Assembly: GCF_018616375.1 (NCBI RefSeq) | Contig: NZ_JAEQBB010000003.1 | Location: forward strand, 248,001-312,000 | Direction: 5' to 3' | Source of the DNA: Exiguobacterium sp. J17977 | GTDB lineage: Bacteria; Bacillota; Bacilli; Exiguobacteriales; Exiguobacteriaceae | DNA: 64,000 bases | Shown here: in pieces, positions 11,080 to 15,084 of the stretch | Layout of the letters: every line of letters starts with the position of its first letter | How positions within the stretch are numbered: the stretch's first letter is position 1 | The notes under the pieces: model-generated | The model's input: the letters and a program-made list of their open reading frames with translations, nothing else | Told to the model about the DNA's origin: nothing | Databases searched by the model: none | Program-made: the position numbers and the translations under genes

Positions 11080-11111
11080 ACGCCTGACCATCACTGGTCA
11101 GGCGTATTTTT
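11080..11111. terminator. Terminator after yajC
   Basis: Stem CGCCTGACC / GGTCAGGCG followed by TATTTTT. The 3' end of the convergent flavoprotein gene lies inside the stem, so one hairpin closes both units. Confidence 0.88.
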
Positions 11112-12252
11112 GTGCAGCAAATAGTTGGGGGATAATCCGCCGTGCCGCTTCTTGTCCGCCATAGATGGCGCGGGCGAACGGTCCGACGACTAAATCGGCA
11201 TAGGCTCCGGTCATGTAAAAGTTGTCGGTCCAAGCAAGGGTCTCGTCGAGGACGGGCGTACCGCATGGGGTGAGAGGCAAGTCGAGCTGCTCGAGGAGCG
11301 GTCGCAAAAACGACTGTCTCGTGTCGAGCGGTCGAATGCCCGTACAGCAGACAATCTCCGACGACGGTAGAGCGCGTCCATCGACATATAGCTGGTCGTC
11401 ACGACGGACCGCATCGCCAATGACGTGATCAATCACGCCTTGACGGATGAGTCGTTTCACTTTGAGGACGAGATCGTTCGGGGACGTCCCAGGTCGACGC
11501 TCAGCTTTGACGAAGGAGCGTTTCTCGACCCAATCGTCTTCGAGTTGATGGAAGGCCCGTAAGCCTTTCGGTCCCATGAAGCTACGGTCGGCGTCGAACT
11601 GGCTCACCTCGAGCGGTCGTTTCGTGACGAGCGTGACGTGATGTCCTTGTTGGTGCCGAGACAAGACGTAATGGAGCGCCGTAATGCCGCCACCGACGAT
11701 CGTCACTTCATGTTGTTCATGAGGTTGATCAGGCGAGAAGACATGTCGGCATCCCGGAAGTCCGGCCCAGTCCGGAAGATGGACGGTGTTCGATTGTCCC
11801 GTCGCGACGATCACCACGTCGGCCGTGATCCGCCGATTTGTCGTCTCGATTACGTAGACGTCATCGAATCGAGACACTCGTTCGACGGGTTCGTTCCCGA
11901 CGAAACGGGACGGTAGCTGCCAGTCATCGATCGTCTGGTCGCAGTGGTCGTTAAACAGGGCGAGCGACGGGCGTCCGAACGTGTCTTTAAAGTGATGGGA
12001 GCCGTAATCGTAATTGGCGGCAAACTGTTTCAGCGCGTGCGGGTTGGACGAAAGATGATGGACTCGCGTCGAACGTAAATGCGACATCGAGATACGGCCG
12101 GTTTGTGTCTTCCAATTGCGGAGCGGCGAGTCGTTCGCGTCGATGATCATCAAATCGTCGAGTGCCCCACCTTGTTCTAAGTAGGATACGGCGAGCGTCA
12201 TGCCATGAATGCCGCCACCGATAATCAAAATCCGTGTATGTGAAGAAATCAT
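11098..12252 (-). CDS. FAD/NAD(P)-binding oxidoreductase, candidate Zur-regulated
   Basis: A 384-residue two-dinucleotide-fold flavoprotein. The FAD site is ILIIGGGIHGMTLAVSYL at the N-terminus, and the NAD(P)H site is VTIVGGGITALHYVLS near residue 183. Between them is VVIVATGQSNTVHLP, and near the end is MTGAYADLVVGPFARAIYGG. The layout resembles the lysine/ornithine N-monooxygenase (SidA/IucD/PvdA) branch of flavoprotein monooxygenases. Substrate residues cannot be checked, so hydroxylase activity is not claimed. The start ATG follows GAGGTGACCC. A near-consensus Zur box covers the upstream region at 12266-12286, pointing to induction in zinc shortage. No siderophore genes adjoin it. Confidence 0.82.
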   Translation of the reverse strand: MISSHTRILIIGGGIHGMTLAVSYLEQGGALDDLMIIDANDSPLRNWKTQTGRISMSHLRSTRVHHLSSNPHALKQFAANYDYGSHHFKDTFGRPSLALFNDHCDQTIDDWQLPSRFVGNEPVERVSRFDDVYVIETTNRRITADVVIVATGQSNTVHLPDWAGLPGCRHVFSPDQPHEQHEVTIVGGGITALHYVLSRHQQGHHVTLVTKRPLEVSQFDADRSFMGPKGLRAFHQLEDDWVEKRSFVKAERRPGTSPNDLVLKVKRLIRQGVIDHVIGDAVRRDDQLYVDGRALPSSEIVCCTGIRPLDTRQSFLRPLLEQLDLPLTPCGTPVLDETLAWTDNFYMTGAYADLVVGPFARAIYGGQEAARRIIPQLFAAQKYA

Positions 12253-12265
12253 TGGGTCACCTCAT

Positions 12266-12286
12266 AAATAGTAATCGTTACGATTT
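12266..12286. promoter_or_regulatory. Zur-like operator
   Basis: Half-sites AAATAGTAAT and GTTACGATTT flank a single C. This matches the Bacillus Zur consensus (AAATCGTAAT, N, ATTACGATTT) at 18 of 20 positions. A Fur 7-1-7 match scores clearly lower. It lies 14 bases upstream of the flavoprotein start, a position suited to repression. Confidence 0.75.
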
Positions 12287-12364
12287 GTATCATAGCGGAA
12301 ATGACAGCTTTTTGTCAAACTGTGTCAATACGACGAATCATCCACCTTATTTCTAAAAATCAAA

Positions 12365-12429: not shown

Positions 12430-14190
12430 ATGGATGTGAAACGATTGCTACGCCCGCTTAAAAAATTGAAGGTTCGACGTCGTCCTGTGAGAGTGAAAGG
12501 CCGGTCGTCGATGCGGCGTAAAATGGCGACCGCGCTCGTACCGACGTTGATTGCCTTATTGATGGTCGGTGCGCTCGGCTCGTATCAATTACAGAATGCG
12601 ACGTCCGAGTACGACCGGGTATTGAACGAACGTGTGCAGGACATGCTCGTCGCCGAGGATTTGGCGTTGACCGTGACGGATGCCGAACGCTATTTGAACT
12701 ACTATCTGCTCGTCTCGAACCCGAAGACGCTCATCAGCCTCGAAGCGGCGCAGACGAAACGCGACGAGTTGATGAACAAGCTCGAACAGTCGTCGTCCGA
12801 TTCGAAAGTCCTCGCCTGGATTGGCGACCTCGAGAAGTTCAATCAACATCTCGACACAGAAATGGCACGCGTCATCGATCTTCGTCAACAACAAGATGAA
12901 ATCGGCTATAAAACGGTACTCAATACGAGCGTGACGCCGACGACGGACCGCGTCCGGATGACGGTGACCGATCTCGTCACGTATCAAGGCGAGGCGCTCG
13001 CTGCTGAGTCGGAAGCGGTCCAAGCGAGTGCCGGGCAGTCAATCATTTGGATGATCGTCATTAGTATCATCGGTGTCGCCATCGGTCTATTCTCGCTTCT
13101 CGCGCTCCAAAAGCTGTTCTTGAAGCCGATCAATCGACTCGTGAGCGAAGCGCGCGTCGTCGCTGAAGGCGATTTGACTGGGAGCGATATCGAGGTCGGC
13201 TCGAACGATGAGCTCGGTGACCTCGTCACGGCGTTCAACGATATGAAACGCAATCTCGTCGGCCTGATTCGTCAAGTCGGGGCGGCCTCGGACAAAGTGA
13301 CGGCCTACTCGGAAGAACTGTATGCGAGCACGGACCACGTCGCCACGACGACGCAAGGTGTGGCCGGCTTGTTCGAACAGATGAACCTTGCCGCCCAAGT
13401 GTCGGCGAAACGGGCCGAGGAAGGGACGTCCGGCGTCAATCAAGCCGTCGTCGGCTTGAACCAAATCGCCTCTGCCTCGCAAGGTGTGAACGAGCAGACG
13501 ATTCATACACTCGAAGCGGCGAGTGGGGGACTCGAAACGATTCAGTTGGCCGAACAGCAGATGCGGGAAATTCAACAAGCGAACGACTTGACGCAACAGA
13601 TGGTCGAGCGCTTATCGAATCAATCGCTCGAGATTGAGAAAATCACGCGTTCCATCACGGCCATCACGGAACAGACGAACTTGCTCGCCTTGAACGCGGC
13701 GATTGAAGCGGCCCGAGCCGGAGAACACGGCAAAGGATTTGCCGTCGTTGCAGCCGAGGTCAGAAAACTCGCCGAAGAGTCGAAACAGTCAGCGAAACAA
13801 ATTCAAGCGGTCGTCGTCGATATTCAGCGCGACACGTCGGAAGTCGAGGCGGCGTTCGATGTCACGAGTCAGCATGTGACGAGCGGCGTGACCCAAATGG
13901 GCGAAGTCGCCGGTGCGTTCCGTGAAATCGTCACCGTCATCCAAGAGACGTCTCGTCAAATGAGTGAGATTGCGGCAGCGACGGAAGAAGTAAGTGCGAA
14001 TACGACCGAAGTCGCGGTCTCGGTCGAAGATATGTCGACGAATGCTGTCTCGACGCAACGAAGTGTCGAAGAGGCGGGCGCGAACGTCGAAGAGCAACTC
14101 GCCGCGATTCAAGAAATCAACGGCATCGCCGAGACGATGAGCCATATGTCGGTCGAGTTGAAAGATCTCGTACATCTCTTCAAAGCATAA
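12430..14190 (+). CDS. Methyl-accepting chemotaxis protein
   Basis: A 586-residue transmembrane receptor. A basic cytoplasmic leader of about 30 residues precedes membrane segment 1 (about 33-52). An extracellular helical domain of the four-helix-bundle type follows, then segment 2 (about 205-230), a HAMP linker ([20 protein letters not shown]) and the signalling hairpin with tip [20 protein letters not shown]. The C-terminus lacks a CheR-tethering pentapeptide. The ligand is unknown. A TTG at 12382 reads in frame but has no site; ATG 12430 has AAGGAG 9 bases upstream. The cre-like element upstream suggests carbon-source control. Confidence 0.93.
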
Positions 14191-14229: not shown

Positions 14230-15084
14230 TTACATTAACAAAATCAGGCTGGCTGCCATGACCATCATACCGGCGACCATGCCGTACACTGCATGGTGGG
14301 CCCGTCCGTATTCGCGGGCGGCTGGGAGCAATTCATCGAGCGAGATGAACACCATGATGCCACCGACGGCCGCGAAGATGATTCCGAACACCGTGTCGCT
14401 TAAGAACGGCATCAACAACAGGAAACCAACGGCCGCGCCAAGCGGTTCGGCGAGTCCGGATAAGAAGGACAGTTTCAGCGCCTTCTTCCGAGAGCCGGTC
14501 GCGTAGTAAATCGGGACCGAGACGGCAATCCCTTCTGGAATGTTGTGCAGTGCGATGGCGATGGCGATCGCTAAACCGACGGCCGGGTCATCGAGGGCCG
14601 AGATGAACGTAGCCAAACCTTCCGGGAAGTTGTGAATCGTGATGGCGAGTGCCATGAAGATTCCCATTTTATGAAGCCGCTGTTTCGTCTCATGATTCAA
14701 CGGGACGCGTTCGGTCGCCGTCGTCGCGAGTTCTTGGGACGACGGGTCGTTTTGCATCGTCTCGACGAATTTGACTTCATGCGGGTTCTCAGGAGACGGG
14801 ATGAACTTGTCAATCAAGGCGATTAACAACATACCGCCAAAGAACGCGAGGACTGTATAGAGTGTCCCGGTCTGCTCGCCATGGGCGCCGACGAGTTCAT
14901 CGAGCGCTTTTGGGAAAATCTCGATAAAGGATACGTAAATCATGACCCCGCCTGAGAAGCCAAGGGACACCGACAAGAAGGCTGTGTTAGTCCGTTTGGC
15001 GAAGAAGGCGATCATACTTCCGATCCCCGTCGCGAGTCCAGCGAACAACGTCAGTAAAAAGGCATAGATAATCGTGCTATCCAT
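14230..15084 (-). CDS. zupT: ZIP-family divalent metal transporter, ZupT-like
   Basis: A 284-residue transporter with about eight membrane segments, predicted to import zinc and related divalent metals. The paired metal-site motifs are TIHNFPEG and ALHNIPEG in the two central helices. A GFSGGVMIYVSFIEIFPKA segment comes early and a hydrophilic loop lies near residues 90-140. ZupT is the closest named subgroup; the metal preference is not proven by sequence. It stands alone, convergent with the chemoreceptor. I see no clear Zur box in the 220 bases upstream, in contrast to the flavoprotein 2 kb away. Confidence 0.85.
   Translation of the reverse strand: MDSTIIYAFLLTLFAGLATGIGSMIAFFAKRTNTAFLSVSLGFSGGVMIYVSFIEIFPKALDELVGAHGEQTGTLYTVLAFFGGMLLIALIDKFIPSPENPHEVKFVETMQNDPSSQELATTATERVPLNHETKQRLHKMGIFMALAITIHNFPEGLATFISALDDPAVGLAIAIAIALHNIPEGIAVSVPIYYATGSRKKALKLSFLSGLAEPLGAAVGFLLLMPFLSDTVFGIIFAAVGGIMVFISLDELLPAAREYGRAHHAVYGMVAGMMVMAASLILLM

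Follow-up and report, generated by a model that had tools for sequence, protein, structure and literature searches.

Zur regulons are mostly understood as sets of importers, COG0523 GTPases and zinc-free paralogues. The locus described here, in which the gene of a flavoprotein oxidoreductase stands behind a near-consensus Zur box, raises the question of whether the gene belongs to such a regulon and what use a flavin enzyme may have in a zinc-starved cell. The gene lies in a window of 64,000 nucleotides (the whole stretch of DNA that was analysed), and its features are collected in Table 1. The box is formed by the half-sites AAATAGTAAT and GTTACGATTT with a central C, and it matches the Firmicute Zur consensus AAATCGTAATNATTACGATTT at 18/20 positions. 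The half-sites around a single base and their score, described in an earlier note on this DNA, were confirmed, with the correction that 13 bases, not 14, separate the box from the ATG.

Table 1. Coordinates of the flavoprotein gene and its upstream elements in the window.
Feature	Position	Strand	Remarks
Flavoprotein CDS	11098..12252	(-)	384 aa FAD/NAD(P)-binding oxidoreductase
Ribosome-binding site GAGGTG	12258..12263	(-)	assigned from sequence
Zur box AAATAGTAATCGTTACGATTT	12266..12286	(.)	18/20 to consensus; kept in orthologues
-10 hexamer TATGAT	12289..12294	(-)	5/6; 18-nt spacer
-35 hexamer TTGACA	12313..12318	(-)	6/6

Within the window, the flavoprotein box was the sole match at three or fewer mismatches, with 0.01 expected from dinucleotide shuffles, and the second-best site reached 14/20. 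The whole 2.94-Mb genome contained only three sites at this threshold, the flavoprotein box being the best of them (2 mismatches), and a reversed control pattern gave no match over the whole genome. The other two sites, each 17/20, precede a COG0523 GTPase gene and znuCB-zur, an operon for a zinc-transporter-like ATPase, a permease and a FUR protein; the znuA site scored 16/20. Therefore, the best box of the genome is found in the right company. The FUR gene located directly behind the ATPase and permease genes (L164), in the operon with its own 17/20 box, is taken to be zur on the basis of this arrangement. The predicted sigma-A promoter of the flavoprotein gene (TTGACA-18-TATGAT) is near-perfect, with 11/12 matches, and ends immediately before the box, so that the predicted +1 would be placed inside it. 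Such a position of the box over the predicted +1 is a layout suited to the blocking of the promoter by a repressor.

Two neighbouring genes deserve mention. A chemotaxis receptor gene (12433-14187, + strand) is divergent from the flavoprotein gene and shares with it the intergenic region containing the Zur box, an arrangement seen likewise at two other loci (L160, L161). Regulation of this receptor by the same box was unsupported, as the receptor gene has only a weak candidate promoter (9/12), located beyond the box. A report on V. cholerae links chemotaxis genes to Zur (PMC8248653). A ZupT zinc transporter gene (NCBIfam equivalog, 388 bits; 14233-15084, - strand) lies 2 kb from the flavoprotein gene, and no Zur box was present upstream of it, the top site there reaching 12/20.

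The conservation of the box was followed among the Bacilli. Of the 19 genomes of the same genus, 13 have a homologue (62-90% identity); in the sister genus it is 6 of 19 (45-50% identity), with other neighbours. The remaining 6/19 and 13/19 genomes lack the gene, which is therefore accessory. The search for the box upstream of orthologues, which had been set beforehand as a refuting test of Zur control, returned it for each of the 19 Exiguobacterium-type orthologues, which are found in two genomic contexts. Its score is 17-19/20, and it usually lies 9-25 nt ahead of the start; in one orthologue (L019), the frame is disturbed near the start and the apparent gap between box and start is longer. 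Full-length homologues were present in 65 of the 400 drawn Bacilli genomes, representing 16 genera, and many of them belong to one family (f10), which in the tree also includes the S. aureus homologue. Outside Exiguobacteriaceae, a box of at least 17/20 was located near the start at 37 of the 46 homologue loci in other Bacilli families, or at 40/46 with a wider search region allowing for over-long frames, and the box scores observed at these 46 loci were never attained in shuffles. A box of this quality was also carried by 21 of the 281 control genes of the same loci; these were for the most part COG0523 and ZnuA genes, a carbonic-anhydrase-like gene, and genes that use the same intergenic region. 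The box has C, A and T positions that are invariant across divergent orthologues. The Metabacillus copy has a 19/20 box and is followed by a COG0523 gene with a perfect box, and an S14 gene is found in the same locus. At another locus (L110), a beta-carbonic-anhydrase-like gene (2065-2629 relative to the flavoprotein frame, - strand) has an 18/20 Zur box region in common with a COG0523 gene.

Published expression data are available for distant homologues. SA0806 of S. aureus is taken by us to be the homologue locus after mnhG, on the gene order from SA0802 (ndh) to SA0807 (mnhG), which agrees with the annotated map. In S. aureus Newman, this gene (NWMN_0815), named 'pyridine nucleotide disulfide oxidoreductase', was increased 229-fold with calprotectin, alongside the Zur regulon, 17.5-fold with sulfide and 8.4-fold with nitroxyl (PMC5480029). 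The genes NWMN_2481-2483, encoding a COG0523 protein, a hypothetical protein and another FAD oxidoreductase, increased 43-152-fold with calprotectin and form a second zinc-responsive flavoprotein unit (PMC5480029). No biochemical study of NWMN_0815/SA0806 was found. The pAQ7 Zur cluster of Synechococcus 7002 contains a single FAD-dependent oxidoreductase, which is derepressed in the zur mutant and by TPEN (PMC4628125) and which the PCC 7002 homologue matches in position and sequence. In C. glutamicum, a Zur-repressed oxidoreductase, Cg0795, is encoded next to a COG0523 gene (PMC2823685). Zinc- or Zur-responsive homologues from S. aureus and Synechococcus 7002 have therefore been published, and the view that Zur regulons had no known member of this kind proved incorrect. 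A term search of one major survey of COG0523 proteins and of a review on Zur returned no flavoprotein of this type, and the family appears to have gone unrecognised as such in the literature searched. The box conservation in orthologues and distant homologues, the orthologue test and the published zinc-limitation data strongly support the proposed Zur control: the flavoprotein gene is very probably repressed by Zur and derepressed in zinc shortage, and, by analogy with the homologues, it is probably switched on when zinc runs short.

The type of enzyme is more difficult to determine. The protein has the FAD motif GGGIHG at residues 12-17 and a second dinucleotide motif, GGGITALH, at residues 187-194, and its AlphaFold2 model reached a pLDDT of 95.4. 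Near-invariant residues of the family include R60, S61, H65, P95, F100, D220, R252, G305 and P333, and neither an NCBIfam equivalog nor a useful PHROG match was found for the protein. In the Foldseek comparison with the PDB, the top structures by TM-score were SsDesB, KtzI, SidA and PvdA (0.71-0.78 over the query), which have the two-dinucleotide-domain fold of N-hydroxylating monooxygenases (NMO), and the best E-value belonged to Bdr (TM-score 0.59-0.65). The NMO likeness suggested earlier thus holds for the fold and fails in the motif and Pfam tests of the window protein. Its PF13434 score of 14.6 bits is under the gathering cut-off of 21.3; the profile is matched by 52 of 68 relatives (E<=0.01), with 24.6 bits for the S. 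aureus protein and 33.1 bits for that of PCC 7002. The strict NMO motif, D(x)3[LF]ATGY(x)4[HP], occurs in 0/143 sequences and a relaxed version in 65/143, the window protein not among them, and the FMO/BVMO (class B) fingerprint FxGxxxHxxx[WYF] was likewise absent from all 143.

Assignment to the disulfide reductases was also rejected. The catalytic Cys of the GxGPCG motif of Bdr/YpdA is absent, GGGIHG standing here against GAGPCG in the genus's own YpdA, and the cysteine position is occupied by H, Q or A in nearly all family members; the NCBIfam score for Bdr/YpdA is 32.6 against 339.9 bits. A thioredoxin-reductase-like enzyme was rejected on the missing CxxC of the NAD(P)H domain, and the window protein contains no CxxC anywhere. 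A motif near the C terminus, CxxCG[YF]P (LPCAPCGYP type), is present in 38/143 sequences, e.g. L109-L115 and L180-L183; Exiguobacterium retains only one of its cysteines (PCGTP), and the motif has been lost from the protein of PCC 7002. A mechanism based on this CxxC was not adopted, the full motif being missing from the proteins of the window, of S. aureus and of PCC 7002. The protein represents a distinct family within the two-dinucleotide-domain flavoprotein superfamily, with a predicted shape nearest to the N-hydroxylases.

The genome scan revealed distant homologues, with about 30-35% identity, in Planctomycetota, Chloroflexota, Balneolota, Myxococcota, Spirochaetota and other phyla. At 25 of the 68 loci in other phyla, a COG0523 gene, counted with HMMs, was located within about 3 kb, and about 16 of these were co-oriented and adjacent or overlapping; the chance expectation, calculated from two clear COG0523 genes in the host's 2.94 Mb, is ~0.5% per locus. 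In haloarchaea, the gene is found behind zinc/metal ABC transporter genes (ZnuABC) or near COG0523-type GTP-binding and S14 genes, and in cyanobacteria it occurs with hemB, folE, ZnuA or a GTP-binding protein. In a 142-row tree, built with a quick method and SH-aLRT support only, the zinc-linked members were scattered over the family yet clustered (20 label changes vs 46 in shuffles). No zinc context was present in the stretches seen for Spirochaete homologues, many Chloroflexi/Anaerolineae homologues and most actinobacterial ones; in Actinobacteria, 15 of 397 genomes had a homologue, on short flanks from which zinc context was mostly absent. It is therefore possible that the roles of the family members are not all the same. 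At some Balneolota and Chloroflexota loci (L181, L194, L197, L209; also L179, L229), the COG0523 and flavoprotein genes adjoin a further flavoprotein gene, which is thioredoxin-reductase-like. In one of them, a Chloroflexaceae MAG (L179), a 158-aa ORF for a Fur-family regulator, possibly a local Zur, lies directly downstream of the flavoprotein gene, between it and COG0523.

On the whole, we consider it somewhat probable that the gene encodes a Zur-regulon, NAD(P)H-using flavin oxygenase-like enzyme for cytosolic zinc sparing or allocation. When zinc is sufficient, Zn-Zur would bind the box over the transcription start and block the strong sigma-A promoter. When zinc is short, Zur would leave the box, and a soluble FAD protein would be made, with two Rossmann domains (FAD, NAD(P)H) and, by prediction, a fold most like that of the N-hydroxylating flavin monooxygenases. 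NAD(P)H would reduce the FAD, and a small cytosolic N- or S-containing substrate might then be oxygenated or oxidised; for this oxygenase-like, NAD(P)H-dependent chemistry the chances appear even. The reaction may serve zinc sparing or reallocation, beside the COG0523 GTPases and zinc-free paralogues. A role of this kind in the cytosol, rather than in uptake or metallophore synthesis, is put forward tentatively, at slightly less than even chance, on two grounds: the gene often occurs by itself or next to COG0523, and the protein sequence starts directly at the FAD Rossmann strand, with no room for a signal peptide.

This reading has to be weighed against several others. The premise of Zur control would fail if the box were a chance palindrome, or a Fur or PerR site, and the organism does encode three FUR paralogues, the boxes of the Fur family having one common layout. 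However, the box is the genome's best Zur match, it is kept over divergent orthologues with the invariant positions given above, and relatives have zinc-gene neighbours; a direct count against palindromes of the Fur and PerR types, arranged in the same way, gave 15/20, as against 18/20 for Zur, and the box is therefore Zur-like, not Fur- or PerR-like. Such an origin of the box is extremely improbable. If Zur control is accepted, the flavoprotein could act as a zinc-free stand-in for a zinc-dependent enzyme, whose reaction it would carry out under scarcity. FolE2, HemB2 and zinc-free ribosomal proteins are known cases of such sparing, and the homologues found in zinc-linked clusters with hemB, folE and S14 paralogues, together with the stand-alone Exiguobacterium and Staphylococcus genes, which lack an obligate partner, are in agreement with it. 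Replacement nevertheless seems rather unlikely, as no zinc enzyme was identified that catalyses an obviously equivalent oxygenase or oxidase reaction, and the fold, in contrast to the known sparing pairs, is not that of a zinc paralogue.

The co-oriented, adjacent COG0523 genes across many phyla may point instead to a redox partner of these GTPases, which would keep the zinc-binding thiols of the GTPase or its clients reduced, or free zinc from thiolate sites. The fold near the bacillithiol disulfide reductase Bdr and the CxxCG[YF]P motif of some members fit this proposal, whereas the replacement of the Bdr cysteine in nearly all members, the lack of the CxxC in Exiguobacterium, S. aureus and PCC 7002, and the absence of an adjacent COG0523 gene from the Exiguobacterium and Staphylococcus copies make it distinctly unlikely. 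A reading in which the members form a hitherto unrecognised, cross-phylum zinc-starvation flavin oxygenase family working with the COG0523 metallochaperone pathway, is also unlikely, if a little less so; an intracellular zinc ligand might, for example, be oxidised and its bound zinc released or redirected to essential clients. Metallophore modification, considered in the earlier note, would make the protein an N-hydroxylase acting on a zinc- or metal-binding siderophore-like compound. The fold similar to ornithine and diamine N-hydroxylases and the TonB system adjoining the cyanobacterial copies could be cited for it, but the gene context gives no support: no synthetase or N-acyltransferase gene was recognised nearby in Bacilli or at other loci, and the S. 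aureus gene is outside the cnt metallophore cluster. With the sub-threshold PF13434 score of the window protein and no strict NMO motif in the 143 sequences, this function is very improbable.

Summarizing, the flavoprotein is an accessory yet widely conserved, probable component of the zinc-starvation response. It recurs with importers, COG0523 genes and zinc-free paralogues in Bacilli, other bacterial phyla and haloarchaea, and its apparent S. aureus homologue is one of the genes with the highest induction by calprotectin. The relatives beside zinc genes in many bacteria and haloarchaea suggest a widespread, unexplained part of this response, and once the family is recognised, entries scattered over tables come together in a single question that can be tested, namely the use of a flavin oxidoreductase to the zinc-starved cell.

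Among the known systems, the N-hydroxylating monooxygenases SidA, PvdA, KtzI and SsDesB are alike in overall fold and in the two dinucleotide domains, although the window flavoprotein shares only 11-18% identity with them, is shorter, lacks their hallmark motif and has another genomic context. Bdr (YpdA) is similar in the sequence of the second domain and differs in the catalytic Cys, exchanged here for H or Q. The S. aureus homologue (CP052031.1, HIK73_14940), with 31% identity over 98% and an 18/20 Zur box, lies downstream of the mnh antiporter genes, and it is named a disulfide reductase, yet the Bdr cysteine is missing. Cg0795, compared by description alone, resembles the window flavoprotein in Zur repression and the COG0523 neighbour. 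The PCC 7002 gene (G0132, SYNPCC7002_RS15860) encodes a full-length homologue with 28.6% identity that shares the LRS..VHH and FDAD..W.GPK motifs, whereas its operator is of the cyanobacterial type and its neighbours are hemB-II, folE-II and a small P-loop protein.
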